The notes under the pieces: generated by a model
Database searches by the model: none
Told to the model about the DNA's origin: nothing
The model's input: only the letters and a program-made list of their open reading frames with translations
NCBI RefSeq assembly: GCF_041260155.1
Contig: NC_091938.1
Span: 15,553,719-15,617,718 of the forward strand
DNA length: 64,000 nucleotides
Reading direction: 5' to 3'
From: Ptychodera flava
Lineage: Eukaryota; Hemichordata; Enteropneusta; Ptychoderidae
Shown: in pieces, positions 20,819 to 60,903 of the stretch
Position numbering within the stretch: position 1 is the stretch's first letter
Layout: every line of letters starts with the position of its first letter
Program-made: the position numbers and the translations under genes

Positions 20819-20882
20819 ATGAGTCGCTTCGTCTACATCTTCCTATGTCTTTCTATTACGAGTTTCTGCAGCTCATTTGCAG
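20819..20882 (+). CDS. Gene A exon 1 (signal peptide)
   Basis: ATG at 20819 with 21 codons plus one base, ending GCTCATTTGCAG|GTATGT. The same ending (C/G-S/T-F-A, then gtatgt) marks exon 1 of genes B and C. The start is chosen because the upstream block and the ATG position agree between paralogues. Confidence 0.85.
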
Positions 20883-21595
20883 GTATGTCATATTATTTTT
20901 CGTTATGAAAAACGGAGACCATGTTTTTAATTTTCATAGACTGCCCATTCGAAAATAATAACACGCCCAAATTTTGCTAATGGTATGGAACTTGTAAATG
21001 AATATAAAAATGAGATGACTGATGTTTTGTCTAACTAGATCCTCAAAACAGTTAGATAGAAATTGAGAACATTCCTTTTTCTCTACTGGAGTAACTGGCG
21101 ATTCGCCTCGGTATCATTCGACAAAAATCGGGCTGCCGAATCCACTGGTCTGATATGGCAGGCGAGTTATAGAATGTTGTTTTCCTACAGCGGTCATGGG
21201 AAAAGAATTTGCTTACGAGAAAGAAATATCCCTTTTGACGAGATCTCGAATTTCAAGTTTGAAACAAAAATTTACGGGAAGATCGTACCAGTTTAATACG
21301 AAGAATCCTTCCAATAAGCCGTCGGCAATTCGTCATAATATTTTATTACTTTAGTTTGTCTGCGGTTAGCAACATGGCACAGTTACTTTGAGTGAGCTGC
21401 GTAGACAATCAATCGCGCAAATGCATGATGATAGGATTGTTAACATTAAACGGCTTACAAGCCTGGTTTCCGCGTGATTCACAGTATATATACATGATAT
21501 ACCGGGTTACAATATATATCTACACCAAACTTATGCCGATGTGTTTGGTATTGGACTTGTCATCGCAGCATGTATATATATATATATTTATATAT

Positions 21596-21663
<68 letters not shown>

Positions 21664-21801
21664 ACACACCACATGCTCATTCCGTGTCGCGATTCGCCAG
21701 AATCGCCTACGGCCTCGGGGAATAGCGATGTGTTTCTGGTAACACACGGCCCCTCGGGGTAATAGACGGGCGCTATAGCCCTCATGACCAGGCAATAGGT
21801 G

Positions 21802-21869
<68 letters not shown>

Positions 21870-24800: not shown

Positions 24801-27800
24801 GCTGGAATCATCACCCGGTTACTACTGCTACTGTCGTCTACTGCTACACGCGCCATAGTCGTCGTCGTCGTCGTCGGTAACAATGTCAATTACATCAACA
24901 GTTCCATAACAGGTTCACATTTACATCTCTTCGTAATAAGCACAAGTTCTCAGATCGTTCAATGTCCGTATTTCTGCTGCCATGAAATCATATCAGTCGT
25001 CCATTCCATCTTTTCAATGTTCTTCATCAAAAGATTCCATTCATTACAAAAGTTCAATCTGATCTCTGTCTTCGGGAATAACACATAACAAACGGTAGAA
25101 CAGCGAACAGCATACATACCGATGAAGCTATAACGGCGAAGGCTTCTGGCTTGAGTCGATCCCTTCCGCTGCTAACCAAATATGTCACGTAGCGTGGTTG
25201 TGATGTGGCTATCGTCGGGTACGTACACTGTGAACGGTGGGCAGTAGACACGGCGACGGGTACACAAATATACTCTAAGTCGTAGCACTTTATTCAGCTG
25301 AGTAACATAAAGTTACACGGTAAAACTTCTATGTCTCACACTAGTCTAGTACTTAGGCGTCTGTCTCGGTCAACGTCGTCTCGAGCGTCGCAACAGGTTC
25401 TGAACGGCTTCTACAGGTTCTACAGCTTCTACAGGTTCTCCCAAGACGTGGTCCACCACAGTCAAACAGACTGGGCTTCTCACTTAGGTCAGTACGTCAA
25501 AGTCTCAGAGCGTCTACATCTCTGTACAGGAATGCGTCAATACGTGAAGTGAAGTGAAGAAGTGTCTCTCTGTCTAGAATGTGTACAACTTAAATCGTCT
25601 CTAAATCTGCATATTGTCATGCCGTTGGTATGCATCAATAATTAACTAAAGAATTAACTAAAGACAGTCGGCATACGTGCAAAGGACAGGAAGGTCGCTG
25701 TCATTAGTACATCTGTCAACATAACGCAAGCGTCCGGTCGCTGTTAATGACTTAAGCTGTTGTTAAAACAATACGTTCACTAAAGACGGATGAACGGTTA
25801 CATCAAAGGTCACGAAAATAAACAAGGGAATCGTTCTCACGATGCACCACGTGCAGACGGGTTACTATAGGTCACTGTCGGTCATTCATTTGTCAGTCAT
25901 ACAAACTAAATTCAAGTCATAAAATATCATATAGTATTAACTATCGAGTGGCTACGTCACAATATAAATCACGGTCGACAATACATGTTAGTGTAAGAGT
26001 AAATGCCACACTGTAGTAATGGCTTTTGTCCAAGCAAATGTTTGACAGTCTAGCCAATTGAGATACTATGACGAATACCAATATGCCCGCTTGTGTACAT
26101 CGGTCGCAAATATGCAAAAAATAATTGAGTGTAGAGTCCGGAACTCCATCCTGATTTACTAATAGTACTATTTCGTCTTTTGCGGTAAATTAAAAGTGGA
26201 CGATTCGGCACTATGCCACTTCGGAACAAAATGTTTCTGTCCCTATTTCCAAATGACATAAAATTGTGTATATGTACTTAAACCCATATTTTAAAGAAAT
26301 TTCAGTGTACATTTTACAGGTCCTGAAGCTCGGAGTCTGTTATTGGCTGGGCCTCTGCCTCAGTGACAAGCACAAAGAGTCGTCTTATTAGTGCTGCTTG
26401 TTTGGTCACGTGAGACGCAGTGATCAGCGAAAGTCTGTTAACACATTCTGCAAGAGTCACAGATATAACCGGGAAAAAATGATCCCCAAATTCATTCAAT
26501 ATAATCCCTATATATGTGTATTTATGAACGTAATTCAAAATAGCTTTGCCCAATGGATTTGAAATGCATGGGTGCTTACTCCGTGCAGATGCTTCTTTAC
26601 GAATTTCAAAATAAACAACTCCATAGACAAATTCATCCACAACAAGTCTCTATTCAGAGTACCAATCGTTCGCGTGATCGAGTATAGACTGCATGTCCAA
26701 TGCAATACAATCACCAATTGTAGTTTGATGGAAGCGTATGCCAAACTGAGCCTCGAATCTTGATCAAGGTCTCTGACCTAAACAAATATCGTTATCCAGA
26801 ATCTCCGTAGTTTTTGTAAAAAAAACCAAACTTACCAAACCTAGGGAATACCCCTAAACTTACCAAAACTAGGGAGCAGTTCTAGATAAATATCACCAGA
26901 GTCAATCGGTTTTGAGGATTGTGTATCACTTATCACTTCTTCGAGTTTCCCCTGAATAACGATTTTTTCCTGTTTTCTAGAGAACGTGCCTGAATGGAGG
27001 ACAAATCCGGAAGATGTGACAGCAACTGCAGGCGATCCAGTACGTCTAGTATGTAGTTTCACACCTTTAGCCGACGATGACCCCAAACCGAGGTGGCTTC
27101 ACTTCAGTGTCACGATATCTAAGGGCGACACAGTGTATAGTCCACGTTTTGAGTTATCTGAGAACGTTTCAGCCGGAAACTATAGTCTGCTAATAAGAAA
27201 CGTGACGCTAGAAGATGAAGGGACGTGGAAATGCAGCCATATCCTAGCCCGACCACAAACACGGAGTGCCTACCTAACGGTGAAAGGTAATGTTGCTGTT
27301 GGAATGTTTGATACTGCATCCTTAGCGACTATCTCTGAGAATCTTTGGTTTGCGTAAAATGTTAGAATTAGTTTCTTTTCTCGCCAGCCAAAAATCTGCA
27401 TTCATAGCCGCTGAATGGAGGGAAAATATTGACACTATATAAAATGTGTGTTATTCGAAATCTTGTCAATGAGGTAGCAATAGAGAAAGAATGTAAATTG
27501 ATTGCATATTTTCTTTGAACTTTAACATTTCCTGCACGATAAAATGTTTGCTGTTTGAATCAGAGTTTTCCCGTGTAATGGGACTATTAGTATCCTTGTT
27601 CAACATGACGTTAAAAGAATCATCGAATTTTGCTTCGTTTTTCACATTACTGATGTTTTTTGCAACATGAATACATGACATCGGTTTCCTTTCCGTCCTT
27701 AACACTGTATTTAAGTTGACGTGGGACACACATTATTAGAAGCATGCAGTTTGTATCGCTTAATGGTCTCGGTGCAAAGGACATCCGTTTCTAAAGTGTG

Positions 27801-28083
27801 TATCTTTCTTCTGTCAAACGACAATCCAAGTTTAACGTAGTCTCATCGTATTTCAGATGCGAAGGGGGAAGATTCCAACGGCTCTGAGACTGCATCTTCG
27901 ACAATGAAAACCATCGTCACTTCAGATATGAAGGGAGGAGAATCAAGCGCTCATCTGATGGCATCTCCGAATATGAAAATCGTCGTCTTCAGCATTCTGT
28001 TTAGCTTAGCGATTCCACTACTACTTGCTTCACTAATGAGAAGTGTCTTCACCAATGTCACAGCATATGACCTTCATGAATAA
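20819..28083 (+). CDS. Ig gene A: signal peptide, one Ig domain, transmembrane segment (3 exons)
   Basis: Reconstructed from three exons: 20819-20882, 26981-27286 and 27857-28083, with GT-AG introns all in phase 1. The predicted protein has 198 residues. Residues 1-21 are a hydrophobic signal peptide (MSRFVYIFLCLSI..FA). An Ig domain follows with Cys in VRLVC and WKCSH, Trp in PRWLHF, and the motif DEGTWKC. A Ser/Thr-rich stalk, a transmembrane segment (IVVFSILFSLAIPLLLASL) and a tail of about 15 residues complete it. It should be a type I surface protein. The Ig fold resembles the first domain of nephrin/Kirrel-type proteins in general layout, but I cannot assign it. No ITIM is visible in the tail; a YDLH sequence is not a canonical motif. 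It lies tail to tail with gene B. Intron 1 (6.1 kb) has absorbed TA arrays and an LTR element. Confidence 0.82.
20883..21300. other. Start of gene A intron 1, shared with gene C
   Basis: Fragments of this intron recur in the matching intron of gene C around 51340-51560 in the same sense relative to the gene: GAGAACATTCCTT, AAGAAATATCCCTTTTGACG, AGATCTCGAATTTC-like. The copy is diverged. It supports descent of A, B and C from one gene with its first intron. Confidence 0.55.
21572..21893. repeat. Paired (TA)n arrays around a 145-bp unit
   Basis: (TA)n runs at 21572-21660 and 21805-21893 flank a GC-richer unit of about 145 bp. The unit contains GCGATTCGCCAGAATCGC (a short palindrome), CCTCGGGGAATAGCG and CCCCTCGGGGTAATAGACGG. 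Its abrupt edges against the TA arrays suggest a mobile unit that inserts into, or generates, TA microsatellites. It lies in intron 1 of gene A. Confidence 0.75.
21894..23401. other. Intron 1 of gene A, no feature seen
   Basis: Unique-looking sequence between the TA arrays and the LTR element. Several 60-76-codon frames occur on both strands, without recognisable domains or flanking splice sites of matching phase. Confidence 0.4.
23402..25961 (-). mobile_element. Small LTR retroelement fossil without gag-pol (TRIM/LARD type)
   Basis: Two direct repeats of about 780 bp, 23402-24182 and about 25183-25961, enclose about 1 kb. Read on the minus strand each begins TGTGACGTAGCC and ends ACGTGACA, the usual TG...CA form. 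Next to the 5' LTR (right side) is TTTGGTTAGCAGCGG, a likely primer-binding site. Next to the 3' LTR is a purine-rich TTGGGAGG tract. The element is flanked by ATAT on both sides, a 4-bp target duplication. The interior shows no gag or pol, so it was never self-sufficient and used another element's machinery. The LTRs differ by a few percent and small indels, so it is a fairly young to middle-aged insertion. The exact superfamily (Gypsy or BEL) is not decidable. It lies in intron 1 of gene A, antisense to it. Confidence 0.85.
26300..26780 (-). pseudogene. Unidentified protein-like reading frame with one internal stop
   Basis: A minus-strand frame running from about 26775 to 26314 reads like real protein over about 150 codons (for example FGIRFHQTTIGDCIALDMQ, then VVDEFVYGVVYFEIRKE, then ALIRRLFVLVTEAEAQPI), with a single TAG near 26638-26650. 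No methionine start or splice sites fit well. I do not recognise the family. It lies in intron 1 of gene A in antisense. It may be a fragment of a processed gene copy or of a transposon protein; chance is also possible. Confidence 0.35.
26981..27286 (+). CDS. Gene A exon 2 (Ig domain)
   Basis: Preceded by a pyrimidine tract and TTTTCTAG and followed by AAAG|GTAATG. It has 306 bases, phase 1 at both ends. It starts ENVPEWRTNPEDVTA and ends RSAYLTVKG. It lacks the extra Cys before the (G/S)N-F/V turn that the four B and C domains carry. Confidence 0.88.
27857..28083 (+). CDS. Gene A exon 3 (stalk, transmembrane segment, tail, stop)
   Basis: Acceptor CGTATTTCAG, then DAKGEDSNGSETASS, a Ser/Thr/Met stalk in which a TSDMKGG-like unit echoes the start, a 20-residue hydrophobic segment and a short tail ending TAYDLHE before TAA at 28081-28083. 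Confidence 0.8.
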
Positions 28084-28259
28084 TTACATTGATGACATTA
28101 ATTATAGATCATATTTACACAAATGTAACAGGTAGACAAATCACAGTTGGTACAGCACTTTAAGATCTTTCAGATAATTTAGCCATTTTCGCCTTTTTCC
28201 CTTCTCTAGTCACACCTTCCTATCCTTCTTCCTTTACCATGGTACGTAATTATAAGAAA

Positions 28260-29640: not shown

Positions 29641-29715
29641 ACGCCCTCTATCATTTTTCTAGTGACCAGGTAACATAGTCTGAATTCCTTTGTTTTCTTT
29701 TGCTTATTTGCGTGA

Positions 29716-29718
<3 letters not shown>

Positions 29719-29784
<66 letters not shown>

Positions 29785-29847
29785 TGTATGTATGTATATA
29801 TATATATTGTGTGTGTGTGTGTGTGTGTGTGTGTACAATATATGTAC

Positions 29848-29889
<42 letters not shown>

Positions 29890-29890: not shown

Positions 29891-32367
29891 ATATCTGATT
29901 CAAAGATACATATGTACATATATCTGATTAAAACAACATAGGCAATGATTGACGATAAAACAAACCAAATAATTTAGAAACAATAAAAGGTAACACGATG
30001 GATACAATTTTATTGCTCTGCCAAGAAGAAAGTGTACACGTTTAGAAGGTGAAAAGCAGAAAGTGAACAAACACATTAAAGATACTTTGCCAGGATCTAT
30101 TTCTCAGAAAGTCTAAAAGTAATTGAGATGCCAACTTCGGAACTTCACGATGTAAATTCAAGTTAATCGAAATGCGATTTGAATGAGCCGGCGATTACGT
30201 AAATTACCATCCTATAATCTCTATATATAATACGCCGCGGTACTTCTTCCTGTTTTAACTCTTTTTACTGTACTATAAAACACCTCTTTACATAAAAAAT
30301 GTATGAATCGTTAAAAAAGTATTCCAGTATGAATCGTTCCAAACTTCCAGTACATTAGTTCATATAAATCAAGGCTATGAGTTACTTTGAGTCACTTCTA
30401 CCTTTGGTGTAACCCATGTACGCTAAAATCTTGCTCTGCTCTTACACCCGGATTCTCCACCGTGAATAACAATTCAATGTCTCTCATTAGGAAATACTGC
30501 TAAGCGGCAAGAATATATGAAAAGAGAAAATAAAAGAAATCCATCTAATGCAAATTACCTCGTCACCAAAGGACATCAAATCGCTGTAATATTTTGTTAA
30601 ATCCAGCACCGTTAATTACAGTGTATTCGGTGATGGTATCATCAATATTACCGATATGAGCACCATCCCTACGACGGATAATAATTCAGTAGATTTTCGA
30701 TCAGATTCGGCACCTAGTTACCCTTCGAAGAGATCACAGTCAAAACCAATCGGCCAAATTCAGAAAATCCCAACCCTTAGCCCTAGCAAGTATGTGTTAC
30801 TAGTTTCATTTTACCAAGCAAAAACCTCGGTTTCCAAACCTATACGTAGAATTACTCCGTTCAGCAGATGCTAGCTGTACTCTAAAAGTTGCTTTCCCCA
30901 ATGCCAAAAACATTTCATAGTTTTTCGGTTTCCCTCAATTCCATTTTACATATTATCCTTGCACTTTTTACCAATAAGGACATAAGTGAACTGTTCATCT
31001 GCTGTGTTATGTAGCTGTCTGGCAAAATGTATAGCTAAGTAAATGACAATTTACGGATACCCTTCACTAAGCTTCGAACGTCTGTGCACTCAAAGTTTCA
31101 GGTTTATATGACAATGTTTTTTTGTATGAAAATGTTTGATATTTATGACCTGATCATCAACATAGAAAACCTTTGAAAACATATGTTCCGGTCTTACTAA
31201 TTGCCAACCATGAGGTATTACGATGAGGTCATTATCAATCGATGATAAGAAAACTTTAGACCAATAATCAAGGTCATGTTTACTATAATTTATGGTATCT
31301 ATTACTATAATTTATATATTATTTTAATCATTGCAAAATACATATCAATAGAAAACTTTGTAGACACCGTCATCAGAGTGACAGCGTAATGATTTCAGTA
31401 ATCAGGTAAAGTTGAAAGATTTCCTTGAAAGGCACTTTTACTATGAATACGAAGTGATGCAGTTGATATGTAAGTCTTTGGGATTTCACTCTGTGCACTT
31501 CGATAGATTTCATGAAGAAGAGCTTCAATTCAAGACATCAGCCAGAGAGGGACTAATTTTTTCACACAACAGTGTCTATTTTGACAGACTCGGTGTCAGA
31601 TCTCTAATAGTTTTTGTCAAATAGCTTAAAGTGTAAGTCTTCGGTATTCCAAACTAAAGTATCACGCACATATATGCCTTCACCAAGGCTGACGATTGTT
31701 CAAGATGTCTTTCTCCTGGAAACACAGGAAACACTTAGTTACTACCATGTTGGTAAACTCCTTTTGTTCCAATTTTTTAGAAAGTCTATCGTTTTTTGCC
31801 TTTGCTCTACAACTCTTGGAAACATTCATATACATCGATAGAAAATAGCGCCCTCTTTAGTCATGTTTGGTAATGTTGCACCCAGCTCACCTGTTCATGA
31901 TTACATGACCTTTTACAAGTTTTATAAATGTGCTTCAAATGTGGATTAAGATGTGCAAGTAGTTATTTTTTGCACTTACTAAAATGCCCAAAAACAGTTT
32001 TCCAAAGATATCTTTACATTCAACTTTTGACAGCGCGACCTTTGCTTGAATAATTTGATAAGGATGGGCTTCTTTCGCATGACTGAACAGTAGCTTAAAC
32101 AGAGGCAGTGAAACTTTTTTCTTAACGAGGGCGTCCAAATTTACCCTTTTCGGACATTTCGTGACTTGATAAGTAAAAGGGTTAACATACCGCTGCGATT
32201 TCGACCTGAGTTAACCACATATGTTCAGGCAAAAATTGTTTTTCAAACGTTACATTTTACGACATCATTTTGTAACCTTTTTCACAAACACGATAGTTTT
32301 GATGGTGAAGGCGCCTGTAAGCACTTTGAAAAACAGCCGGTTAACTTTGAGTGCCAACTTGTTACAC
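29891..32367. other. AT-rich intergenic DNA between genes A and B
   Basis: No gene recognised. Near 31878-31945 there is a diverged copy, in the same orientation, of the sequence that encodes the last codons of gene B (shared: CAGCTCACCTG-TCATGATTAC and TCAAATGTGG). This could be a small local duplication or two ends of one repeat family. Frames of 60-108 codons elsewhere lack any domain. Confidence 0.45.
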
Positions 32368-32540
32368 CTAGCTCACCTGCTCATGATTACGTGCCCTCAA
32401 ATGTGGTTGCTCTTGCGGGTTTCGTCTACAATATTTTGCTATGAAAACTATCAATATAACAATGCTACTTATCACTAAAAGAGAAACTATTACAATGACG
32501 ATGGTAGTTGTCTTGTCACTGGATTCTTCTCCCACAACCT
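32368..32540 (-). CDS. Gene B exon 4 (stalk, transmembrane segment, tail)
   Basis: Acceptor TTTTTATTTCAG, then EVVGEESSDKTTT, about 22 hydrophobic residues (IVIVIVSLLVISSIVILIVF), a basic KYCRR stop-transfer signal and about 17 further residues to TAG. The CAG|GTGAGC near the stop may be used as a donor. Confidence 0.82.
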
Positions 32541-35500
32541 CTGAAATAAAAAGAAAAAGACAATGATGTGAACCTTGAATTGTCTTTTGTCGGAATAAGG
32601 GTTAAACACCCGCCCGACAAACGCATTGTTGAATTGACGATGAATTACATGAAACTGTATGATCTCGCCATAATACATTTTCTACTTTGAGTCAAAGTCC
32701 TGCCAACGCTTAGTGAAGCAGTACATGGTCCTGAAACAACGTATTTTTCACAAAATATGGAATCTAAATAAGTCTTTCATTCGTTTCACATTTAAACTTG
32801 TCATCATATTTTTGATATATTCTCTCCATTCAAAGACTAACATTAACATTAACACAATAAAAGAAACTGAACAATACCTTTAACTGTCAAGAAACCACTT
32901 TGTGACCGTGGATTAGCTTGGTCATGGCTACATCTCCAAGTTCCTTCATCTTCTGACGTAACACTTTTTATCAGTAGGTTGTATTCGCCGATGGAGAAAT
33001 TGCCGAAGACCTGACAGTTTGGAAGGAATGCCTGGTCGCCCTCTGACACCGCATGTGTTTCCCCATTTCTTGTGTGTTCCCACCTCGGTTTTGGGTCGTC
33101 TTTATCCAGGCTTGTCAACCAACAGGATAGGCGTACTTCTCCACCTATTGTTGCATTAACATCTTCTGGAGAACTCTCCCATTCAGGACTGACTGTATGA
33201 AGTAATAAGCCACACATTGGTAATGTATAGTGTTATAGTTTAACATTTTCTAATTCTTTCGCAATTTTAGTTAATTAAAATTTAATAAGTCACTACACCT
33301 TTTGTCATGCAAACTTTTCAATAAACATGTTACATTTAATACCTGAACATACTTGTAAAGTATTTGAGCATATGGTGTTTTATCATGATAGTTAAGGCAA
33401 CCTTCTGAGGTTTATCTTAATATTTGTCATTTCCTCAATACGTGTCGTTGACATTATTGTAAATGATATTATAGCTTTGTCAATACAAGTGAAATTTGTG
33501 ACGTCATCCCCAAGATTATTATTGATAATGTATCCGATTATCAAGCATCTTGGCCCCAGATATTTTCTACATCTACAAATACACTGGCATCGCCAAAACT
33601 ATAAAATAATAGCAGTAATGTACCCCCTTCTGGCCCAAAATGGAATAAAGCAATCTTTGCACTCCATTATGTACTCAGTTTCGCCTCGTACGTTATGCTG
33701 TGCAAAGTTTGCGTTCGTCCATTACGGGTCAACAGGGAGTACATTATTGCTTAAATAAGATGGTTGGAATAGTAAATCTCCCTGATGAGCAGAGCTGAAA
33801 AAGGAGGGTACTCTTCAAGGTAAAAGTTAAGTTCATTGATTTTTGAATATAGTTTGCGATACCACTTTTGAAGAGAGCATCGAATATAGTCTTGCAGCAA
33901 GAAAATTAGAATGTTCCAAACAAAAGTTATCACGTAATCCTTTCGCACTCAATCATCAACTCTTTCTTGTTAATTTTTTCAGATGTTGCCCTGTTCACGA
34001 ACCCTTCAAGTTTGCCATTATCTAATACATCCGAAGTATGAACTTACATCATTGCTGAAAAGCAAAGTCATTTAAGTATTCCATTTTGGCAAAATCGGAC
34101 GTAGAGTTCAGAGTTCGCCTCACCCAATCTCTACGTCTCATAAAATAAGATTGAATTAAGAACTGTAATTACCAGATACTTTCAGAGTTGCACCGCGTAT
34201 CTGTGGGACAGCCTGGACATGGGTACACTGCCAAACTCCTTCATGTTTGTGCGTTATGTTCTGTATCAGAAGGTTGTACTCGCCGCTGTCGAAGTTGCCA
34301 TACACCTTACAGCATTCAGAAAATGATTCGCCACCAATTGAGATGATAGTTTTCAGCGTTCCATCGATTTTGTGTTCCCATCTCGGCAGAGGTCCATCCT
34401 CACTTAACCCGGTCAACCGACAGTGAAAACTAACATCTTCACCAACGTTTCCCTCCTTATCTTCTGGAACCACTGACCACACAGGATTATCTAAATATCA
34501 AGACACAATGCATCACTGGCACTGACTTTATGATTGCATTTTGATTCATTTGAGACCATTTCGGGTAAATTTGATGTATTGGGGACGGGGCTAACAAACT
34601 CAAAGTGTTCAAATTATTCTAATGTGCCTTACAAATTTGTGGTTGACAGAAAAAATACGATGTAGTAACAACGCTGTGTTTGGTGTGAAGCAAGATTTAC
34701 AGGGACTGTTATTGATAATGATCAGGATAACAAAAGTGTCCTGTAATCCAAAATGCCAAGTAGCTTATACATGTAGCACGGGTAATTTGAAAGTGGGCGC
34801 CAACTTCCAGGTAAGACTTTCGATATATTTCCACATCAACACGGCACATGTTCATAGGCTAGGCAGCGCGGTCGGGGTAGGGGCAGCTGGAGCGATCGCC
34901 CCGACTCCAGTTTTTCAAATCCCTGCACGTGCACACCTTCCCTCTAAAAGTAATAAAATATAATTTCTGGTTTTCATTTCGTCAAAAGATTGCGGCCCAA
35001 TGCGTCATCGTATCGCCACACGAGGAACAAACACTGTGTTAAACTGTGTCACTAGACGAACCACTGATATAGCTGTGCCAAGTTTGCAATGAACCAAATG
35101 CACCTTTGTATAAAGTTTTGTAAATTTGATTAAGTCAAATCAGATATATATCCCTCATTAGGAAAGTTCATTAAATATGCAAATCAGCAACTTTCTTTCA
35201 TGTTACCCTTAATGCCTCTCACAGCTGATATACCTTGATGTGATCAACATTTGTAGCAAATCTCATCAAATTCTGTGCAGTCGTTCTCAATGTATATCCG
35301 TTCTTTCTAAAATCACTAATTATGCAAATGAGCAAAAAGTAAGCAAGCCACACCCACCAAAAACTAATCAGATCTTGCCATTTGCAAACTGAATGTATGT
35401 ACCAGATTTGATTCTGATCTGACGAGCAATTTTGAGATATCTTGCGCACAGACAGACAGACAGACAGACATCGCTGCGACATTAGCCACGTGTATGAACA

Positions 35501-38500
35501 CGTGAGCTAAAAAACGAATATTTCTGTGTCCACTACACGAGGATATCAGAAGACCTATTTGCCTTTGAAATGGAGATTAAATGTACATAGAATAAGCTTA
35601 TTGAACATTTGTCTTCACAAAATGAATATACAGTCTGTCAACTACCATTGTATTTATTAAACACTTAAAAAGAAGAGAAGTTTACCAGATTTACCAAGAT
35701 TTTAGATTTATATATAACTCTATTTGTTTGTTTTGGATTTTTTCCTTAACTACATATTGTTAAAACACGATTTATTTGGAACTTTTGTACTTTCCATCAA
35801 ATTTAGTTATGGACATTGTCAAGCTAACTTTTGATTCTATTTCTGTAAAATTCTGTGCGAGAGGCTGAGGCCCACCACTGTTGAGATAAAGATTGACAGC
35901 GATTTTCAAACCGCCATCGCCATTTCTGGCGTAGTTTTTCGTAGTTTTTCGCCACCGTGACACGTTAATCTTTAAACAAATCTCCTAAAAGTCTGTCAGT
36001 TTCAACATGTAAGTGCATTTGCTGGAATGCGAGCCTGTGTGTAACCTTTTCAGCGTCCTCTTATACAGTGAATGCCGCCGTTGCCATGCCCCTTTTTATA
36101 GGGGAGTTGCGCCTGTGTTTGCAAACAACAAACGTCTCTATGACGTTGCTATTGTGCGCCAATCGCGCTGGACCTCACCCTAGAAACCATCAGCGGCGTT
36201 ACGGTATTATCATACCGTATTTCTTCGCGTCACCGCAGAGCAGAGCCAGAACATGTAAACGATGGGATGGGCAGTTTCCCGGGCAAACCACCTGCCAAAT
36301 TTCGCAAACATCTTGGCTAATTTGCATATTGTATTGTATTGCAGATCAGCCAAACGGTAAACGAGATCCATGTTGTTTACTCGGATATTTTAAAACAATA
36401 CTCAATATGTTTGTCCAGTAGTCGGAAATTTCAGCGTCAGGCAAAGCATACGATAGCCTGATAGTCTGTCCAAAGTTGATCTTTTTTTAGACTCTGATTA
36501 TTGCGGTGATAGCGAATGTTCTGCTGTAAAAGAGCCTTTACAAAGTGTTTCAAAAAACTTTACTGAAGTTGTAAGGCTTGTAAGTCGGTACAATGGTGAT
36601 ATAGAACTGACTGCCAACAAGATCGAAAAATAAGGCTATCGATATTGCGAAAACACATTCGGTCGTATACTTAGTATTTTCGAGGCTGATAATCAATACA
36701 GCGAAAGTCAATGGACGTGTTGCGCTTACATCGCGAGTACATCAAGTTCGTAGGTGTACTACTTGAATGTAGGTGTAGTTACGTTTATTCAGGAATTACA
36801 AAATATGATTGTCGTGGTGTTGTTGAGCTTGATTTACACTCCTCACTCTTATGTTTATATATTTTGGTGTCTGAGTGCTGGCTGTAAATAAGTCTATGCC
36901 CGTGCTATAATTATCTTGAAAAAATTATGGACAAGCGATGGCCAAACACAAATGAACTATTAACATAGATCGAGTTCAAGGAAGGTCAACACAATAATTC
37001 TACATGGCAAAGGTCAACTCAAGTCTACATGGCAAAGGTCAACACAATTAATTCTACACGGCGAAAAAAAACCGCACAAACTCGCTAGGCGCAGGCGTAC
37101 TCGCAACGGTACGAGCCAGTGTAACATCAATCCAAAGTAACAAAATATACTGTAGACGAGTTATCAGGAGGATTCAAAGTAAAGGGTACGATCTGTTTGT
37201 TAGCTTTAAACTTGAAGTTGTCTTAAAAACAAATTATTTCTTTCGTGTAAGCCATATTTTCCGATGACCGCGCTGTAGGAAACAAATTTATGACAACTCC
37301 AAAGAATCACCTGCCATGTCAATCCAGTGGATTCGGCGCCAATTTTTTGTCGAATAATATCGAGGCAAATCGGCAATAACGTACACTGTAGCAGAGAAGA
37401 AGGAACATTCTCAATTTCTATATCACTGTTACGAGATCTAGATCGAGAAACGTCAGTCTTCTGATTTTACATTCATGTACAAGTCGAATACCATCGGCAA
37501 AACTTGGGCGTGCTATATTTTCGAATGTTACCAATCTTTGAAAACTTAAAATACATGGAATATCGGCATCAGCTCTGTGATGGTCTCATTATTAAGTAAC
37601 GACAAAGAGTGGTACGGTAAATATTATACTGTATCTCTCCGCGTCACCGCCAAGCGATCAGAAGATGTAAACGATATAGTGGGCAGTTTCCCGGGCAACC
37701 ACCTACCAAATTTCGCAAACATCTCGCGTAATTTGCATATTGTAATTGTATTGCAGATCAGCGAAACGGTAAACAAGATCCATGTTGTTAACTCTTGATA
37801 TTTTAAAACAATATTTAGTCGGAAATTTCAGCGTCCGGCAAAGCATACGATAGCCTGATAGTCTGTCCAAAGTTGATCATTTTTTAAGACTCTGATTATT
37901 GCGGTGATAGCGAATGTTCTGCTGTAAAAGAGCCTTTACAAAGTGTTTCAAAAAACTTTACTGAAGTTGCAAGGCTTGTAAGTCGGTACAATGGTGATAT
38001 AGAACTGACTGCCAACAAGATCGAAAAATAAGGCTATCGATATTGCGAAAACACATTCGGTCGTATACTTAGTATTTTCGAGGCTGATAATCAATACAGC
38101 GAAAGTCAATGGACGTGTTGCGCTTACATCGCGAGTACATCAAGTTCGTAGGTGTACTACTTGAATGTAGGTGTAGTTACGTTTATTCAGGAATTACAAA
38201 ATATGATTGTCGTGGTGTTGTTGAGCTTGATTTACACTCCTCACTCTTATGTTTATATATTTTGGTGTCTGAGTGCTGGCTGTAAATAAGTCTATGCCCG
38301 TGCTATAATTATCTTGAAAAAATTATGGACAAGCGATGGCCAAACACAAATGAACTATTAACATAGATCGAGTTCAAGGAAGGTCAACACAATTAATTCT
38401 ACATGGCAAAGGTCAACACAATTAATTCTGACACAGGTCAAAAAAAAACCGCACAAAACTCGCTAGGCGCAGGCGTACTCGCAACGGTACGAGCCAGTGT

Positions 38501-41057
38501 AACATCAATCCAAAGTAACAAAATATACTGTAGACGAGTTATCAGGAGGATTCAAAGTAAAGGGTACGATCTGTTTGTTAGCTTTAAACTTGAAGTGGTG
38601 ATGTCTTAAAAACAAATTATTTCTCTCGTGTAAGCCATATTTCCGATGACCGCGCTGTAGGAAAACAAATTTTATGACAACTCCAAAGAATCACCTGCCA
38701 TGTCAATCCAGTGGATTCGGCGCCAATTTTTTGTCGAATAATATCGAGGCAAATCGGCAATAACGTACACTGTAGCAGAGAAGAAGGAACATTCTCAATT
38801 TCTATATCACTGTTACGAGATCTAGATCGAGAAATTTCAGTTTTCTGATTTTACATTCATGTACAAGTCGAATACCATCGGCAAAACTTGGGCGTGCTAT
38901 ATTTTCGAATGTTACCAATCTTTGAAAACTTAAAATACATGGAATATCGGCATCAGCTCTGTGATGGTCTCATTATTAAGTAACGACAAAGAGTGGTACG
39001 GTAAATATTAACTGTATCTCTCCGCGTCACCGCCAAGCGATCAGAAGATGTAAACGATATAGTGGGCAGTTGCCCGGGCAACCCCCTACCAAATTTCGCA
39101 AACATCTCGCGTAATTTGCATATTGTAATTGTATTGCAGATAAGCGAAACGGTAACAAGATCCATGTTGTTAACTCTTGATATTTTAAAATAATACTCAG
39201 TATGTTTGTCCAGTAGTCGGAAATTTCAGCGTCCGGCAAAGCATACGATAGCCTGATAGTCTGTCCAAAGTTGATCATTTTTTAAGACTCTGATTATTGC
39301 GGTGATAGCGAATGTTCTGCTGTAAAAGAGCCTTTACAAAGTGTTTCAAAAAACTTTACTGAAGTTGTAAGGCTTGTAAGTCGGTACAATGGTGATATAG
39401 AACTGACTGCCAACAAGATCGAAAAATAAGGCTATCGATATTGCGAAAACACATTCGGTCGTATACTTAGTATTTTCGAGGCTGATAATCAATACAGCGA
39501 AAGTCAATGGACGTGTTGCGCTTACATCGCGAGTACATCAAGTTCGTAGGTGTACTACTTGAATGTAGGTGTAGTTACGTTTATTCAGGAATTACAAAAT
39601 ATGATTGTCGTGGTGTTGTTGAGCTTGATTTACACTCCTCACTCTTATGTTTATATATTTTGGTGTCTGAGTGCTGGCTGTAAATAAGTCTATGCCGTGC
39701 TATAATTATCTTGAAAAAATTATGGACAAGCGATGGCCAAACACAAATGAACTATTAACATAGATCGAGTTCAAGGAAGGTCAACACAATTAATTCTACA
39801 TGGCAAAGGTCAACACAAGTCTACATGGCAAAGGTCAACACAATTAATTCTACACGGCAAAAAAACCGCACAAACTCGCTAGGCGCAGGCGTACTCGCAA
39901 CGGTACGAGCCAGTGTAACATCAATCCAAAGTAACAAAATATACTGTAGACGAGTTATCAGGAGGATTCAAAGTAAAGGGTACGATCTGTTTGTTAGCTT
40001 TAAACTTGAAGTTGTCTTAAAAACAAATTATTTCTTTCGTGTAAGCCATATTTCACGATGACCGCGCTGTAGGAAAACAAATTTTATGACAACTCCAAAG
40101 AATCACCTGCCATGTCAATCCAGTGGATTCGGCGCCAATTTTTTGTCGAATAATATCGAGGCAAATCGGCAATAACGTATACTGTAGCAGAGAAGAAGGA
40201 ACGTTCTCGAATTTCTATATCACTTTTACGAGATCTAGATCAAGAAACTTCAGTCTTCTGATTTTACAATCATGTACAAGTCGAATACCATCGGCAAAAC
40301 TTGGGCGTGCTATATTTTCGAATGTTACCAATCTTTGAAAACTTAAAATACATGGAATATCGGCATCAGCTCTGTGATGGTCTCATTATTAAGTAACGAC
40401 AAAGAGTGGTACGGTAAATATTATACTGTATCTCTCCGCGTCACCGCCAAGCGATCAGAAGATGTAAACGATATAGTGGGCAGTTTCCCGGGCAACCACC
40501 TACCAAATTTCGCAAACATCTCGCGTAATTTGCATATTGTAATTGTATTGCAGATAGGCGAAACGGTAAACAAGATCCATGTTGTTAAACTCTGGATATT
40601 TTCTCTTCACAAGAAATATTATTTTCATGTAAGCCACATTTTCCGATGGCCGCCGTGCAGGAAAACAATATTTTATGACAACTCCAAAGAATCGCTTCGC
40701 TCGGTGGATTCGGCGCCAATTTTTGTCGAATAATATCGAGGCAAATTGGCAGTAACGTATATGCAGCAGAGAAGAAGGAACGTTCTCAATTTCTATTAAG
40801 TGTTACGAGATCTAGATCGAGAAACATCAGTCTTCTGATTTTACATTCATGTACAAGTCGAATACCATCGGCAAAACTTTGGCGTGCTATTTTCGAATGT
40901 ACCAATCTTAAAAACATGGAATATCGACATGGGCTCTGTGATGGTCTCATTTTTAACGCAACGACAAATAGTATTACATACCTGCAAAAGTGCCAAAGAA
41001 AGTCATGGTAGATAAATAAACGAAGATGCAGCATGCGCGGGCGACCAGGCGACTCAT
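32368..41057 (-). CDS. Ig gene B: signal peptide, two Ig domains, transmembrane segment (4 exons)
   Basis: Four exons on the minus strand: 41057-40982, 34490-34173, 33192-32878 and 32540-32368, all phase-1 junctions with GT-AG ends. The predicted protein has 293 residues: a 25-residue signal peptide (MSRLVARACCIFVY..FA), Ig 1 (DNPVWSVVPEDKEG to ATLKVSG; HEGVWQC), Ig 2 (VSPEWESSPEDVNA to FLTVKG; DEGTWRC), a short acidic stalk, a transmembrane segment rich in Val/Ile, and a basic tail KYCRRNPQEQPHLRARNHEQVS. It should be a type I surface protein. The tail has no Tyr motif. The last codons contain CAG|GTGAGC, a good splice donor, so a longer tail from further exons is possible. Intron 1 (6.5 kb) carries a 1.4-kb tandem repeat. 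It is a paralogue of gene C, in tandem with it. Confidence 0.83.
32878..33192 (-). CDS. Gene B exon 3 (second Ig domain)
   Basis: It has 315 bases, phase 1 to 1, between CATACAG and GTATTG. Cys in VRLSC and WRCSH, Trp in PRWEH, plus an additional Cys in NCQVFGNF. Confidence 0.88.
33751..34035 (-). pseudogene. Possible decayed terminal exon between the two Ig exons of gene B
   Basis: After GGATGTATTAG a phase-1 frame reads DNGKLEGFVNRATSEK and stops at ERIT. In another frame directly afterwards comes the hydrophobic VITFVWNILIFLLQ followed by a basic tail (YRKLYSK). This is the layout of a terminal exon (stalk, membrane segment, tail) with one frame disruption. Its place matches a similar remnant in gene C (49372-49586). 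A chance hydrophobic frame cannot be excluded. Confidence 0.35.
34173..34490 (-). CDS. Gene B exon 2 (first Ig domain)
   Basis: It has 318 bases, phase 1 to 1, between ATATTTAG and GTAATT. Cys in VSFHC and WQCTH, Trp in PRWEH, and a Cys pair in ECCKVYGNF. It shows the family DGPLPRWEH block. Confidence 0.88.
34491..35100. other. Gene B intron 1, proximal part
   Basis: No feature recognised. A short GC-rich patch lies at 34860-34915. Confidence 0.4.
35100..35510. repeat. Dispersed-repeat-like unit ending in (CAGA)n
   Basis: AT-rich sequence with repeated ATGCAAAT-type blocks, then a (CAGA)n run at 35449-35470 and a CACGTGTATGAACACGTG palindrome followed by AGCTAAAA. The (CAGA)n tail and terminal palindrome are typical of repeat-family ends in invertebrates. 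The family is not identified and no second full copy is in the window. Confidence 0.4.
36190..40610. repeat. 1.4-kb tandem repeat inside intron 1 of gene B
   Basis: About 3.2 copies of a unit of about 1398 bp. The marker GTCGGAAATTTCAGCGTC occurs at 36421, 37818 and 39216. The copies differ by few substitutions and small indels. One unit contains the blocks TTTGCATATTGTA, GATTATTGCGGTGATAGCG and GGTGTACTACTTGAATGTAG. Diverged relatives of the same blocks sit in intron 1 of gene C (50340-50640), so the unit is ancestral intron sequence that was amplified only in gene B. The last partial copy passes into 40611-40980, which leads up to exon 1. ORFs inside are repeated by the amplification and look non-coding. 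Confidence 0.88.
40982..41057 (-). CDS. Gene B exon 1 (signal peptide)
   Basis: It has 76 bases: 25 codons and one base, ending CACTTTTGCAG|GTATGT. Hydrophobic core CCIFVYLSTMTFF. It aligns with exon 1 of gene C (MSRLVAR against MNRFIAR). Confidence 0.85.
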
Positions 41058-43072: not shown

Positions 43073-43076
43073 ATAT

Positions 43077-43146
<70 letters not shown>

Positions 43147-46130: not shown

Positions 46131-46316
46131 TGCCCGTGGTTAGAGCACTCTGAGATTGTTGGGCAGCCTCTTGCGTAATATATAAAGGGGCGTTCACGTG
46201 CACTGTTGGCACTATGCTTCGCTCATGGTACGTATTGCCGTTAGAGCACTCTGGTGAGTCCATATTTCAATCCTCAACAATGTGTAACCGTTACTCTGTG
46301 TGCCCAAGTTCAGATA
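46131..46316 (+). repeat. Third copy of the 43-kb unit
   Basis: Shares AGAGCACTCTGAGATTGTTG, GGCAGCCTCTTGCGTAATAT, GGCACTATGCTTCGCTCATG and CAATCCTCAACAATGTGTAA with 43260-43430. It begins AGTGCCCGTGGTTAGAGCA, the most tRNA-like version. Confidence 0.7.
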
Positions 46317-47495
46317 CCTTTTTTTATTCTGTTGCGACTTTGAGTCATCTCATACAGTCAAGGAGTGATTTGTTCCTATAAACTGTGGCAGATTCTACAT
46401 GTGACCGCAAACGCTAACGTGTCGAAAGAATTGCCTGTTTTATTTGTTACGCCACAACGTAACCATAGGTTTGTTCATTTACAACATCTTTGGTAGCTTT
46501 AAAGTTTGTTTGAGTATAATTGGAATTCATTTGATCTGATTATTTCGTGTTATTAATATTTTCAAGACCTTGTTTTCACGATTGTTCACTTCAGAGATGC
46601 GATGTGTCCTTTCCGAGGAGACTAAGAGATCCCTGGTCATCTTCTTTTACGCCACTGTTGTCCAGTCTACAAATTTAAGTGATTTTCCTCTGTGACAATG
46701 TAAATTAAAGTTTGTTTTGTACCTTGAATTCTCTGCAATACCTTCTCTAACCGTGATAATGAATGTGGGAAATGAGTCACTTTTGATTGGTGAAGGCATT
46801 GCTCAAGCATCGATCGTTCTCATACATCGAAGCTTCATCGTCGTAAACCACGGGCCTCTTTACGGCAACAGCTTATAGCTAACCGTTAACCGTTGATTTT
46901 TGCGTAGGTCAGCGGAGCGAAAATTATTGCTCTGGCTCGCCAGAATGCGACTCTTTCGTTCCTCCATGTACTATTTGCATGGGAACCCCCCCCCCCCCTT
47001 ATCTCCACAACATCCAAACAGATCACTCTTCAACCAGCAATGAATATAATGCTTTCAACCGCCGCCCGTTTTCATAGACTGTTTTCCACACGAAGATAGA
47101 AAAGTTTAACTGTCAACAGCACAATACAGTATTGCCAAAGACGTTTCATACTACGATTACAAATGTCAATTGGTTGTTCTTCAATTTTTATAAAAGACGA
47201 AACGGGACAATAAATGGCACAGCATTGTATAGAAACATGTGAACAGACACTTTTGTATTCATTTTCCTGTGAAAAAATTGTGAACATTAATGTTTTCTCT
47301 AGTTAATGTATGGACAAGTGTAAACCCAATAAAAAAAACCATACCACAATATAAAATACATTAAACACAGATTACGACATATTGAGGTATGTCAATTCTA
47401 TTAGAAAAAAATTCTTGTTGTCTTTGTTGTTTTTACGTTTTTAGCTCTTGTCGAGATGATACAGTAATTCGTTAAAAGTGCACTTTATGGTACAA
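46317..47495. other. No gene seen; second copy of a dispersed repeat
   Basis: The segment 46838-46950 matches 10615-10735. A run of C (46987-47000) follows. The rest shows no gene. Confidence 0.45.
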
Positions 47496-47759
47496 TGTCA
47501 GGGGGTCACCGGGCAAAATTTGGTTCTAGAGAAACAAGGTACCTATAACATTTACCGATTTTTAAAATTCAAAATGGCCGCAATCCTTGTGTTGACTTTA
47601 TGGGAAAAATGAAATTTTCGATTCTATGAAACCCTAAGACGATAAAAAGTTGTCCCACTCCAAGAGCTTTGAAATAACCCCCACAAGTGATATTTAAGAA
47701 AAGAATTGTAAAACCTTGAGATTCCGAATATCTATCCCCGAGGCGCATTCTACCCTAAA
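47496..47759. mobile_element. TTAA MITE, copy 2 (truncated), at the 3' end of Ig gene C
   Basis: The family landmarks GGTCACCGGGCAAA, ATTCAAAATGGCCGC, CCCCCACAAGTG and ATCCCCGAGGCGCATTCTAC are present. The right end is CCCTAA where intact copies have CCTTAA. The left end is missing or too diverged. The right terminus coincides with the stop codon of gene C, so the MITE forms the beginning of its 3' UTR. Confidence 0.8.
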
Positions 47760-47864
47760 ACAGCATTTGGATCAGTTGAAGTATGAACGTGAGAATTACG
47801 CCAAAAATCCCTTCTAGAGTAGGATACACCGTCATCTGTCCACTCAGCTCCTTTCTATCCGAAT
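47755..47864 (-). CDS. Gene C exon 4 (spacer and hydrophobic C-terminus)
   Basis: Acceptor CTGTATTTCAG, phase 1, 36 codons to TAG at 47757-47755. The last 18 residues are hydrophobic. The stop codon overlaps TTAG, where other MITE copies have TTAA. Confidence 0.72.
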
Positions 47865-50800
47865 CTGAAATACAGGTAATAGACGACTATGTGCAGTTGG
47901 TTGTATAAACAGGCACCCAAACACTATACATAGTTTATTCTCCTGATTTTGCAAGATTATTAAAGTCCCTGAAAGTATCACGATATTGAATCTTGGTTAT
48001 GAAACTCATCTTGCTAGAGGTCAAAGAGTGTGCCTTTTCTACTTGCCACTCGCAAAATTATGAATCCTCGTAAGAAATCGTTCCGTAAAATATCAGTATC
48101 ATTCGTTATCATGTCATAAAGCCATCGTTTATCACAATCGTCAATTCATTATCATAACAATTTTTATCGAATATTGGATACCTGTCACAGTCAAGCTGGC
48201 ACCTCTTTTCTTTGGTTCTGCCAGAACATGGACGCACTTCCATTCTCCCTCCTCCTCTGACGTCACGGTTCGAATCTTGATATTGTACTCGCCACTCTTA
48301 AAGTCGCCGACTACTTCACAGCGGGGGCTGAAAGATACTTGACCCTTGGAAACGATGTGTGTTTCCCCACCGTACCGGAATTCCCATCTTGGAAGAGGGC
48401 CGTCTTCATCCAAATCTGTCAACTTACAGGGTAGTGTGACATCCTCCCCAATTGCCGCGATCAAATTCTGCGGAAATGACTTCCACCTAGGTTTCTCTGG
48501 AACAGTATAGTCAGTTACAATTTGTCAGTAATTTGGCAAGTATTATCGTAAATGCTTTCATGGGCAACCAACCAGGCTTTCAAGAATGCGTATACCCAGA
48601 AGTGTTTAAGTTTACATGGGTCACGAGCGAAAATTGAAGGAAAAAATAAAAGCTGTTCGCACCTTCCCTCCCGCTACGACTTGCAAAGTGGCCCCTCCTG
48701 TCCGCCAGCTTCACTTGCCCACACAGTCCCCTAGACAAGAGGCACCCTACGTGACTGCCCTTTTCCCGTCGTAAAGGTTCGCTGACGCAATCTTCTCGCT
48801 ACATGAATCATTTTTTATATCTGACACATGACAGCTTTGACAATGTTGAAAAATGTTTATTCTTGTTTATCAGTTACAAATGGTACATCCGGCCCTCGAA
48901 TGACGGACATTTAAAGCTTTTACCCCACAAAACAACATTCAACCCACAGCCTACCCGTTATTTTTTTTCATGTTGCTCAACATGAAACGCTCCCGCTCGA
49001 CGCGTACATAAGATAAAATGAGCCATTAAAATACCGATCACACTGATTTGCATGGAATTCAGCACGTGCAGAACAAAGTCAATCCCTTCGCCCACACACA
49101 GTGTATTGTCACCTGCCATATTGGACCAGTACACGATGCAACCGATATCATATTAATCTACAGAAGTTCGATAGCGAGTAAGTTCAAGGGTCATTGCCTC
49201 GAGCAATGTGATTAAAATTTGATGAACTAATGAACTCGGACGCCGTCAGCTCAATGTGTTGCATGTCCCTGTTGTAAAGGCGAGAACTGCTGAGTCTAGT
49301 GTCAATTGGAGATGTTACTATAGATATGATTTTTCTCCAATGTCGGACACCTATGCCGAAGAAGATTTAGCCTAATCAACAATATCTAAATTATCTAAAA
49401 AGTTCAAATGAGACTGTGTTGAAAACAGTTTGGGTCGGATCGGGTAATATCGATAGCGGAAGATTCTACACATTCGACGTAGATTCCGATGATGGATACC
49501 GTTGCCACAATATTGTAACGATGAATTATGAAATAAAGTTCCATAGAACATAGCCCCAGTTTCAGACCCGGGTAAGTTTCTAGAATCTGAAACTGTATAG
49601 TTAGGTTCTTGAGTAGCGATAAAGATTGCTTCCGAGTCAAGACTCTGGTTCAAATAAGTTTAGGTATATACCTGTCACAATTAACTTAGCGCTTCGTTTT
49701 TGTGGTTCGGCGAGAACGTGCGTACATTTCCATTCCCCTTCTTCCTCTGACGTGATAGCTGTAATATGAATGCTGTACTCTCCCTTCGTGAAGTCGCCAA
49801 TTATCTCACAGCATGGCATGAAGGAAAAAGTACCCTTTGAAATGATGCGAGTTTTCTCATCTATGCTGCGGTGTTCCCATCTCGGTAGAGGTCCGTCTTC
49901 GTCCAAACCAGTCAACTGGCAGGGAAAAATAACACTCTCACCGAATGTCGCTTTCAAATCACGCGGAACTGTCTCCCATTTGGGTTTTTCTGGAGAAATG
50001 ATCGTAAACAATGGCAGTTTAGATTGACGTGACTACTGATTGCATACCCGTGTATTATTGGCTACTCTCACGTAGTCACAATGCCACGTTCACCTTGAAA
50101 AGAAGGGGGGACAGGTTCTAACTTGTACGGATGTTTACTAGTAATTCATATTCAAGGCCGATAAACGAAAACTTATTTCCTTGGGACGTCTTGAACGTGG
50201 TGTAAATTCATTTTGTATTGTCTGGATAATTTAAGCCGTGCTCAGTAAGTTTTTCATTAGTCAGCAATTTCGAATTCCGTCAACACATACGATCATCGAG
50301 AGCCTGACAAGGTCGGGTCTCTATCTCAGGAGTTAATTATTTTTCCGTACTCTGGTTATTGCGGTGATAGCGATTCTACTTGTTTTGATGTCTCTGCTTT
50401 GCAATGTGTTGCAATAGTTTACTGAAGTTGTAAGGTTTGCAAAACGATGCAATGGTGATCTATAAGTGAAAAGTCAACAAGGTAGAAAATTGAAGTTATA
50501 GATAAGACGTTTTCACTTAGGCTCTTTCATTGTGAGTTCATCAAGCTCTAAGGTGTACTACTTTAATTTATATTTCGTCAAGTTTATTCAGAATTTCAAA
50601 ATATGATGGTCGTTGAGCTTGATTGACATATATCATTCTTATACTTATTTATTTTGGTGTCTGAGTGCTATAATATCAGGAGAAGGTTATGGATAAGCGA
50701 CGGCCAAACACAATTGGCATGTACTTTAACATACTTTAACATAAATCTAACTGAGAGAAGTCAAAACAACTAATTCTACGTGGCAAACAACAAGGTTGAG

Positions 50801-51828
50801 TCAGATAAACACTTTAAACGAGCCGTCGTAAAACTTCACAGAACAGAGAACAAAACAGATCTCACTTCAAATGCTACGTCACTTGATATGTTGAAATACA
50901 CAGTATTAAGTTTACCAACATGATGCACTGTGAAAAAATGCGATAATACTGTTGACAATTGAATTCTAGTACGGCCTACGAATTCAGCGGTCAACAGTAA
51001 AATTGGAAATTGCCCTCATGCATACTGCGTTTGCAAATTCACTACCATACACTGCGACATGGTCTTTGGAGTTGATGTAGTCTGTAATTCGTATTGTAAA
51101 TTATACGGAAACCTTCTGAGCTGTTTGGTGTTCATATTTGCTATCACGATACAGACGAAAATTGTGCGCAAGTGCTTATCGACGCAATCAAGGACACTCA
51201 CTCAAAAAATATTGTACATAATAGCTAAACGCAGACATGCTATCGAAGGTATACGAGCCGCCGTAACACCGCTCCAAAGAAGCAAACTATAAAATGACGG
51301 AATGTCGACGAGTTTTTAGAAGGAATTGAAATAAAGGGTACGGTTTTAGTTTGAAACTTCGCGATCTCGTCAAAGGAAACATTTCTTTCCTGTAGGCCTA
51401 AGCCAAATTTGCCTATGACTGTCGTAGGAAAACAATATGTACTCAAAAAACTTGCCTACCATGTACAAGCGGGTGGATTTTTGTTGAATGATACCAAGGC
51501 GAACCGGTAGTAACTGTAGCAGAGAAGAAGGAACGTTCTCAATTTCTATCTCACTGTTAAGATGATCTGGATCGAGAAAATATCAGTCGTCTGGTTTTAC
51601 ATTCATTCACAAGTTGTATGTACCATCGACAAAACTTGGGCGTGTCATTATTTTTGAATGCCCAGTCTAAAAAACTTTAAAACATGGAAGAGCGACATCA
51701 GCTGGTTTGATGGTCGTCGTTTCCAGCAACGACTAATGGTATTTTTACATACCTGCAAAAGAGCTACAGAAAATCGTTGTTTGAAACCATAGAAAGGTGT
51801 AGAATGTGCGGGCGATGAAGCGATTCAT
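47755..51828 (-). CDS. Ig gene C: signal peptide, two Ig domains, hydrophobic C-terminus (4 exons)
   Basis: Four minus-strand exons: 51828-51753, 49989-49672, 48496-48182 and 47864-47755, all phase-1 with GT-AG ends. The predicted protein has 272 residues: a signal peptide (MNRFIARTFYTFLW..FA), Ig 1 (EKPKWETVPRDLKA to AKLIVTG), Ig 2 (EKPRWKSFPQNLIA to ASLTVTG) and a last exon DSDRKELSGQ, then about ten spacer residues and a hydrophobic end GIFGVILTFILQLIQMLF directly at the stop. With no cytoplasmic residues and a small-residue SG site before the spacer, this is a plausible GPI-attachment signal; a tail-less membrane protein is the alternative. The Ig domains share DEDGPLPRWE and EEGEWKC. Stop codon TAG lies at the TTAA target of a MITE. 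Upstream sequence is shared with gene A. Confidence 0.83.
48182..48496 (-). CDS. Gene C exon 3 (second Ig domain)
   Basis: It has 315 bases, phase 1 to 1, between CTGTTCCAG and GTATCC. Cys in VTLPC and WKCVH, Trp in PRWEF, extra Cys in PRCEVVGDF. Confidence 0.88.
49372..49586 (-). pseudogene. Possible decayed terminal exon between the two Ig exons of gene C
   Basis: After ACTATACAGTTTCAG a phase-1 frame reads DSRNLPGSETGAMFYG, close to DSNGSETAS in the stalk exon of gene A. It then continues hydrophilic to a stop at 49372. A neighbouring frame over the same bases reads HRYNIVATVSIIGIYVEC, a potential membrane segment. A single frame change would explain this. As it stands, splicing to it would give a one-Ig secreted form with a basic tail. 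Confidence 0.42.
49672..49989 (-). CDS. Gene C exon 2 (first Ig domain)
   Basis: It has 318 bases, phase 1 to 1, between TTCTCCAG and GTATAT. Cys in VIFPC and WKCTH, Trp in PRWEH, and PCCEIIGDF with the extra Cys pair. Confidence 0.88.
49990..51752. other. Gene C intron 1
   Basis: It contains single, diverged copies of the blocks that are amplified in gene B (GGTTATTGCGGTGATAGCGA, AGTTTACTGAAGTTGTAAGG, GGTGTACTACTTTAATTTA at 50340-50580). Nearer exon 1 it holds blocks shared with gene A intron 1. No other feature is seen. Confidence 0.6.
51753..51828 (-). CDS. Gene C exon 1 (signal peptide)
   Basis: It has 76 bases, ending AGCTCTTTTGCAG|GTATGT. Start context GGTCGCTGGTATGAATCGC matches gene A (GGTATCTGGTATGAGTCGC). 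Confidence 0.85.
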
Positions 51829-59202: not shown

Positions 59203-59213
59203 CTCTCTCCCTC

Positions 59214-59278
<65 letters not shown>

Positions 59279-60872: not shown

Positions 60873-60903
<31 letters not shown>

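Follow-up and report, generated by a model that had tools for sequence, protein, structure and literature searches.

Genes of the cluster

The DNA analyzed here is a 64,000-nucleotide stretch of contig NC_091938.1 of the hemichordate Ptychodera flava (positions 15,553,719 to 15,617,718, forward strand), referred to below as the window and numbered from its first base. It contains a cluster of three genes, A, B and C, that are predicted to encode small surface proteins of the immunoglobulin (Ig) superfamily. All three are built on a common plan: their signal exons match, each of their one or two Ig domains is encoded by a single exon, and the C-terminus is hydrophobic. Gene A lies on the forward strand and has a single Ig domain; genes B and C lie on the reverse strand and have two each (domains B1, B2, C1 and C2; the gene A domain is called A). 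The exons join in frame to give translations of 198, 302 and 272 amino acids for A, B and C, respectively, with no inner stop codon. All nine junctions of the three models are flanked by AG and GT, and eight are in phase 1; the sole exception is a phase 0 junction preceding the small last exon of gene B. The signal exons were located by reading the sequence and by homology; a scan for signal exons by hydropathy cutoff missed all three and picked up a single repeat artefact.

Exon 1 of gene A (20819..20882, +) encodes the signal peptide MSRFVYIFLCLSITSFCSSFA and ends in phase 1. It is followed by an exon of 102 codons encoding the single V-like Ig domain (26981..27286, +; Pfam V-set, E 1.5e-10) and by a third exon encoding a stalk, a hydrophobic segment (amino acids 165-183), 15 further residues and the stop (27857..28083, +). 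Gene B begins with a signal peptide exon (40982..41057, -), followed by exons for Ig domain 1 (34173..34490, -; 106 codons) and Ig domain 2 (32878..33192, -; 105 codons), a fourth exon with a hydrophobic segment (amino acids 250-268) and the start of the tail (32377..32540, -), and a fifth, the least certain of its exons, that supplies the final 11 tail residues and the stop after the phase 0 junction (31680..31715, -). Gene C consists of a signal peptide exon (51753..51828, -), exons for Ig domain 1 (49672..49989, -; 106 codons) and Ig domain 2 (48182..48496, -; 105 codons), and a fourth exon encoding a hydrophobic, apparently anchoring C-terminal tail that resembles a glycosylphosphatidylinositol (GPI) signal (47755..47864, -). 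In the order A, B1, B2, C1, C2, the Ig exons measure 306, 318, 315, 318 and 315 nt. An earlier note on this DNA had proposed three clustered paralogous Ig surface-protein genes with differing C-termini, bounded by the first bases of the gene A ATG (20819) and the gene C ATG (51828), with five Ig exons of 102-106 codons joined in phase 1. The coordinates, exon sizes and phases agree with our models, apart from the one junction in gene B, and the models, the homology of the Ig exons and the tails bear out the rest of the description. As a set of predicted genes, the three-gene cluster is confirmed.

Homology and divergence of the Ig exons

In tblastn searches of the 64 kb, every one of the five Ig exons recovers all the others with E no higher than 6e-21, and protein identity among them is 39-63%. 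No sixth Ig exon was found in the window at E up to 1, a search that a heavily decayed copy could escape; the only other matches at this threshold were two short ones, with E of 0.63 and 0.92. Pfam Ig models match all five exons (E 1.5e-10 to 8e-4), with only A and B2 passing the gathering score. The core cysteines of the B and F strands (Cys23 and Cys87) and the core tryptophan of the C strand (Trp37) are invariant, and the residues that mark the V/I-set of the Ig superfamily are thus present in every predicted domain. The residue two positions before the second Ig cysteine is usually Tyr; it is Trp in all five domains. Extra cysteines occur in genes B and C, as an adjacent pair in domain 1 and singly in domain 2, and gene A has none. 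We read the stretch with the adjacent pair as the D strand. Sequons for N-glycosylation number five in A (one of them beyond the membrane segment), three in B and none in C.

By the NG86 method, nonsynonymous divergence (dN) ranges from 0.25 to 0.57 and synonymous divergence (dS) from 1.16 to 4.51. Since dN is below dS in all 10 pairs of Ig exons, the protein is conserved relative to silent change in every pair, although pairwise values of this kind would miss selection on a few sites. YN00 gave dN/dS values of 0.50/1.54 for B1-B2 and 0.31/0.72 for C1-C2. Together with the protein identities, the ten pairs with dN below dS make these look like working genes. The repeats and transposon-like stretches in the introns would fit duplicates that are decaying or unexpressed; however, with all five Ig frames open, the splice sites intact and dN lower than dS, we regard decay as highly improbable.

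Silent sites are near chance, yet above chance in most pairs. In the eight between-gene pairs, identity at fourfold-degenerate sites is 0.20-0.45 (20-27 sites per pair), against 0.26 by chance, and third-position identity is 0.37-0.47, compared with 0.56 within gene B and 0.52 within gene C. Codons for conserved residues are identical at a rate of 0.33-0.54, where 0.33-0.37 is expected. Either the Ig exons of the three genes separated long ago, therefore, or their silent sites are also fast-changing. The earlier note had called these receptors rapidly duplicating, which the fourfold-site identities between genes do not support; the only recent copies are the intron-1 units within gene B described below.

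In trees of the Ig exons, A and B2 are split from B1, C1 and C2 with bootstrap values of 96 (protein) and 100 (nucleotide; 200 replicates), and C1 is joined with C2 with support of 78 and 99, respectively. Within gene C the two domains thus resemble one another more than either resembles the domain at the same position in gene B. Despite this placement, B1 and C1 have in common the adjacent cysteine pair and one extra residue. Exchange between the two Ig exons of one gene is one possible explanation. It is favored by the silent identity of B1 and B2 (26/42 conserved-residue codons, 12/20 fourfold sites), which exceeds that of any between-gene pair; against it, the values for C1 and C2 (33/63 and 12/29) fall inside the between-gene range.

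A 5' cassette common to the three genes

A feature overlooked in the earlier note is a cassette at the 5' end of all three genes, made up of an initiator-like motif, the signal exon and the start of intron 1. The motif, TCAGTAGCT (20791..20799, + in gene A), stands exactly 28 nt before the ATG in A, B and C and may mark the transcription start site. Signal exons are 70-78% identical between genes. The start of intron 1 is 74-78% identical over its first 332-435 aligned bases (95% intervals within 0.68-0.83), compared with a mean of 0.45 and a maximum of 0.53 in forced alignments of unrelated 440-base stretches (n=30). Identity drops to 0.65-0.73 over the first 700 bases (577-604 aligned), and over 419 upstream bases it is only 0.46-0.55. 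The upstream likeness extends for about 155 nt between A and C, and for just 36-52 nt or so between B and either of the others (the A-B match starts at 20772 and 41109, 47 nt ahead of the ATG). In gene A the cassette (20664..21352, +), comprising the 155 upstream nt, the signal exon and the start of intron 1, aligns with 51986-51276 of gene C. Identity is 69% over 748 columns with C and 69% over 521 columns with B.

Similarity between the first introns of B and C spans about 1.14 kb of the 1.76-kb intron 1 of gene C, in blocks of 70% and 62%. Present once in gene C, the unit forms a head-to-tail series of four in intron 1 of gene B (36200..40977, -); one copy is shortened and the others measure about 1.4 kb each, and across about 530 aligned bases these full-length units show 98-99% identity. 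The unit begins downstream of the signal exon, and no extra signal exons were found in the tandem copies of gene B. None of the six copies of the unit is open from end to end, the longest stop-free run being 101 codons, and two open reading frames (ORFs) from the unit matched no Pfam family. Intron 1 of gene A holds a direct repeat of its own, about 780 bases long, 90% identical and 1 kb apart (23402-24182 and 25183-25961), that may represent the two termini of a mobile element.

At E 0.05, 15 further stretches taken from the rest of the introns, the 3' flanks and the terminal exons gave no between-gene alignment in a forward-strand search with low-complexity filtering. Otherwise the gene regions have in common only a microsatellite, shared by A and B, and a repeat that lies outside the genes, shared by B and C. 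The intron-1 tract was picked because it could be aligned, which biases its identity upward, and even given that choice the silent sites of the Ig exons appear far more diverged than the tract. The contrast would arise if the cassette is constrained, if it was exchanged after the Ig exons had parted, or if all sites of the Ig exons evolve more rapidly. Mismatches in the B-C cassette are clustered (variance test, 0 of 1000 permutations; longest run, P 0.007). Those of A-C and A-B are weakly so (P 0.042 and 0.047), with longest runs that are not significant (P 0.46 and 0.58). Clustering of this kind fits either constraint or patchy conversion. Positive selection as the sole source of the mismatch between leader and body was rejected, because dS is also high.

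These genes might be viewed as Ig receptors that evolve in the manner of toxin families, with the cassette kept alike by constraint or repeated conversion, the Ig exons mutated or exchanged faster, and a single expression programme serving differing ectodomains and anchors. We consider this unlikely.

Anchors and family relationships

The hydrophobic segments of A and B are likely membrane segments, and the best 19-residue stretch contains no charged residue in either. It is followed by 15 residues in A, 34 in B and a single one in C, whose tail we read as a GPI signal. Searches of the three C-termini for six patterns, the immunoreceptor tyrosine-based inhibitory (ITIM) and switch (ITSM) motifs, YxxL, YxxM, NPxY and the PDZ-binding pattern, gave no match to any. 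With uncharged membrane segments in A and B and no such motif in the tails, signalling would require a partner protein.

Compared singly with solved chains, A is best matched by OBCAM, an IgLON (E 2.4e-6), B2 by Kirrel2 (E 1.9e-5), C1 by SIRP-alpha (E 1.4e-4), C2 by SYG-1 (E 2.8e-4) and B1 by an antibody light chain (E 5.3e-4). A joint profile of the five domains ranks pIgR first (E 1e-11, as the sum of five domains of which none is individually significant), followed by NEGR1, LRIG1, JAML, SIRP-alpha and Kirrel2; through such summing, it favors chains with several Ig domains. The best matches are scattered over several families, so the domain is a generic V-like one and orthology is not pinned to any one of them, in agreement with the earlier note, which had recognized no named family. 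Scatter of this kind does not mean that an orthologue is absent. One alternative is that A, B and C are shortened relatives of Kirrel, nephrin and SYG-1, or of adhesion proteins of the IgLON type, and serve an ordinary role in development. In its favor are the Kirrel-family best matches of two of the five domains and that of A to OBCAM. However, C1 and B1 have their nearest matches elsewhere, the joint profile places five other proteins over Kirrel2, and the models have only one or two Ig domains. Such kinship seems decidedly unlikely. Searches of viral and prokaryote contigs gave 24 and 35 pattern matches, respectively, with no confirmed relative among either. We found no description of such a cluster in the open-access literature searched, which is no proof that it is unpublished.

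Proposed function

Every model starts with a sequence resembling a signal peptide, continues with V-like Ig domains and has a hydrophobic segment at its C-terminal end. Our interpretation is that A, B and C are probably clustered paralogues that go back to one Ig-superfamily gene and separated long ago, encoding surface proteins that would bind through their Ig domains; most likely these are adhesion or recognition proteins with a common leader and diverged binding domains. All three products would be extracellular, with A and B spanning the membrane once and C attached by a GPI anchor, and the partner bound by the Ig domains would be either carried by another cell or present in the environment. 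Roles in adhesion, or as co-receptor, ligand or decoy, appear to be the best fit. Given the likeness in leader, motif and first part of intron 1, and the divergence of the Ig domains and C-termini, the genes could be expressed jointly and differ in what they bind, which is a guess.

Several points weigh against this interpretation. The GPI assignment depends on the gene C tail terminating in a hydrophobic stretch, one less hydrophobic (1.93) than those of A and B, and a good omega/omega+2 pair is not evident in that tail by eye. The gene C signal peptide is also weakly hydrophobic (best 9-mer 1.27), the last exon of gene B is a guess, and the gene models are known from sequence alone. Moreover, dS is rough at such distances; YN00 failed for 8 of the 10 pairs and returned a dS of 0.72 for C1-C2.

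An immune or allorecognition role is possible. As a more specific form of the interpretation just given, the three genes would be the members in this window of a lineage-specific family with a use akin to that of Hydractinia Alr or the mammalian CEACAMs. Clustered paralogues in both orientations with differing C-termini would suit such a family, as would precedents reported for the clustered Alr genes (PMC11067881) and for the CEACAMs, with their variety of anchors and a dog pair alike in leader, intron 1 and upstream DNA (PMC2832619). Yet none of the six motifs occurs in the tails, dN is below dS in all 10 pairs, and silent-site divergence is too great for a recent burst. We hold this more specific form tentatively and think it somewhat improbable. 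Should the family prove large and polymorphic genome-wide, it could be considered a candidate system of recognition in this animal, and the mismatch between leader and body would then offer a means of studying the diversification of such families. Three genes alone amount to a well-supported annotation of an Ig-superfamily cluster, which does not imply function; surface proteins of the Ig superfamily are an already known kind of molecule.

Elsewhere in the window

GC content is 34-41% in 4-kb steps, and the window includes microsatellites, tandem arrays and a reverse transcriptase. The last (5606-7533, -) matches Pfam RVT_1 (E 1.6e-7) and, weakly and below cutoff, GIY-YIG, and is perhaps Penelope-like in view of that accompanying match. 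Arrays of a 21-base unit lie near it at 869-1808, 3873-4543 and 5152-5532. A tandem duplication of about 2.5 kb, 94.8% identical, occupies 53690-58764. Beyond it, 59074-62797 (+) possibly encodes a membrane-bound sulfotransferase: the ORF at 61118-62797 matches Sulfotransfer_2 slightly under the gathering score (E 4.6e-4), and the ORF upstream of it has a hydrophobic stretch and no Pfam match above cutoff. An Rfam scan of the window gave nothing at gathering score, and a tRNA search found none.

Comparison with known systems

Kirrel and nephrin have ectodomains of five or more Ig domains. Genes B and C resemble this group in their V/I-type domains, and the best solved match of B2 and C2 is to the first Ig domain of a Kirrel-family protein. 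They differ in having two domains, and gene A one, within the window, and A, B1 and C1 are best matched by other families. The IgLONs have three Ig domains and a GPI anchor; here there are at most two domains, and a GPI-like tail is seen in C only.

The Alr genes of Hydractinia are likewise clustered genes of the Ig superfamily, a likeness drawn from the published description. Alr1 and Alr2 are reported to be single-pass membrane proteins, highly polymorphic, that control allorecognition (PMC11067881). The VCBPs of amphioxus and Ciona share with B and C two tandem V-type domains. They are reported to have a chitin-binding domain, splice in frame 0 and spread each V domain over several exons (PMC2632668), unlike the phase 1 junctions, single-exon domains and hydrophobic C-termini found here; flanking DNA was not searched for the chitin-binding model.

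CEACAMs are similar in arrangement, as clustered Ig paralogues with differing anchors, a likeness that speaks to how such proteins work and not to membership. No CEACAM was the best match of any domain, and one appears low in the list for A, among the best 60 solved chains kept for each domain. The portions of PMC2832619 that treat these genes describe secreted, GPI-anchored and transmembrane forms, with ITIM, ITSM or immunoreceptor tyrosine-based activation (ITAM) motifs in long-tailed CEACAMs, if not in every member; the C-termini of A, B and C have no such tail motif among the six searched. Among the paired receptors treated there, likeness is mostly highest in the binding-domain exon, whereas in A, B and C it is highest in the leader and the first part of intron 1.

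A similar contrast between leader and body is found in the conotoxins. As reported for these genes, the signal exon is conserved, introns are alike within a superfamily, and both Dn and Ds are much higher in the body exon; in one superfamily, introns 1 and 2 are poorly conserved (PMC3862624). The likeness is one of evolutionary pattern only. Conotoxins are unrelated secreted peptides, and in the Ig exons described here dN is lower than dS in all pairs.

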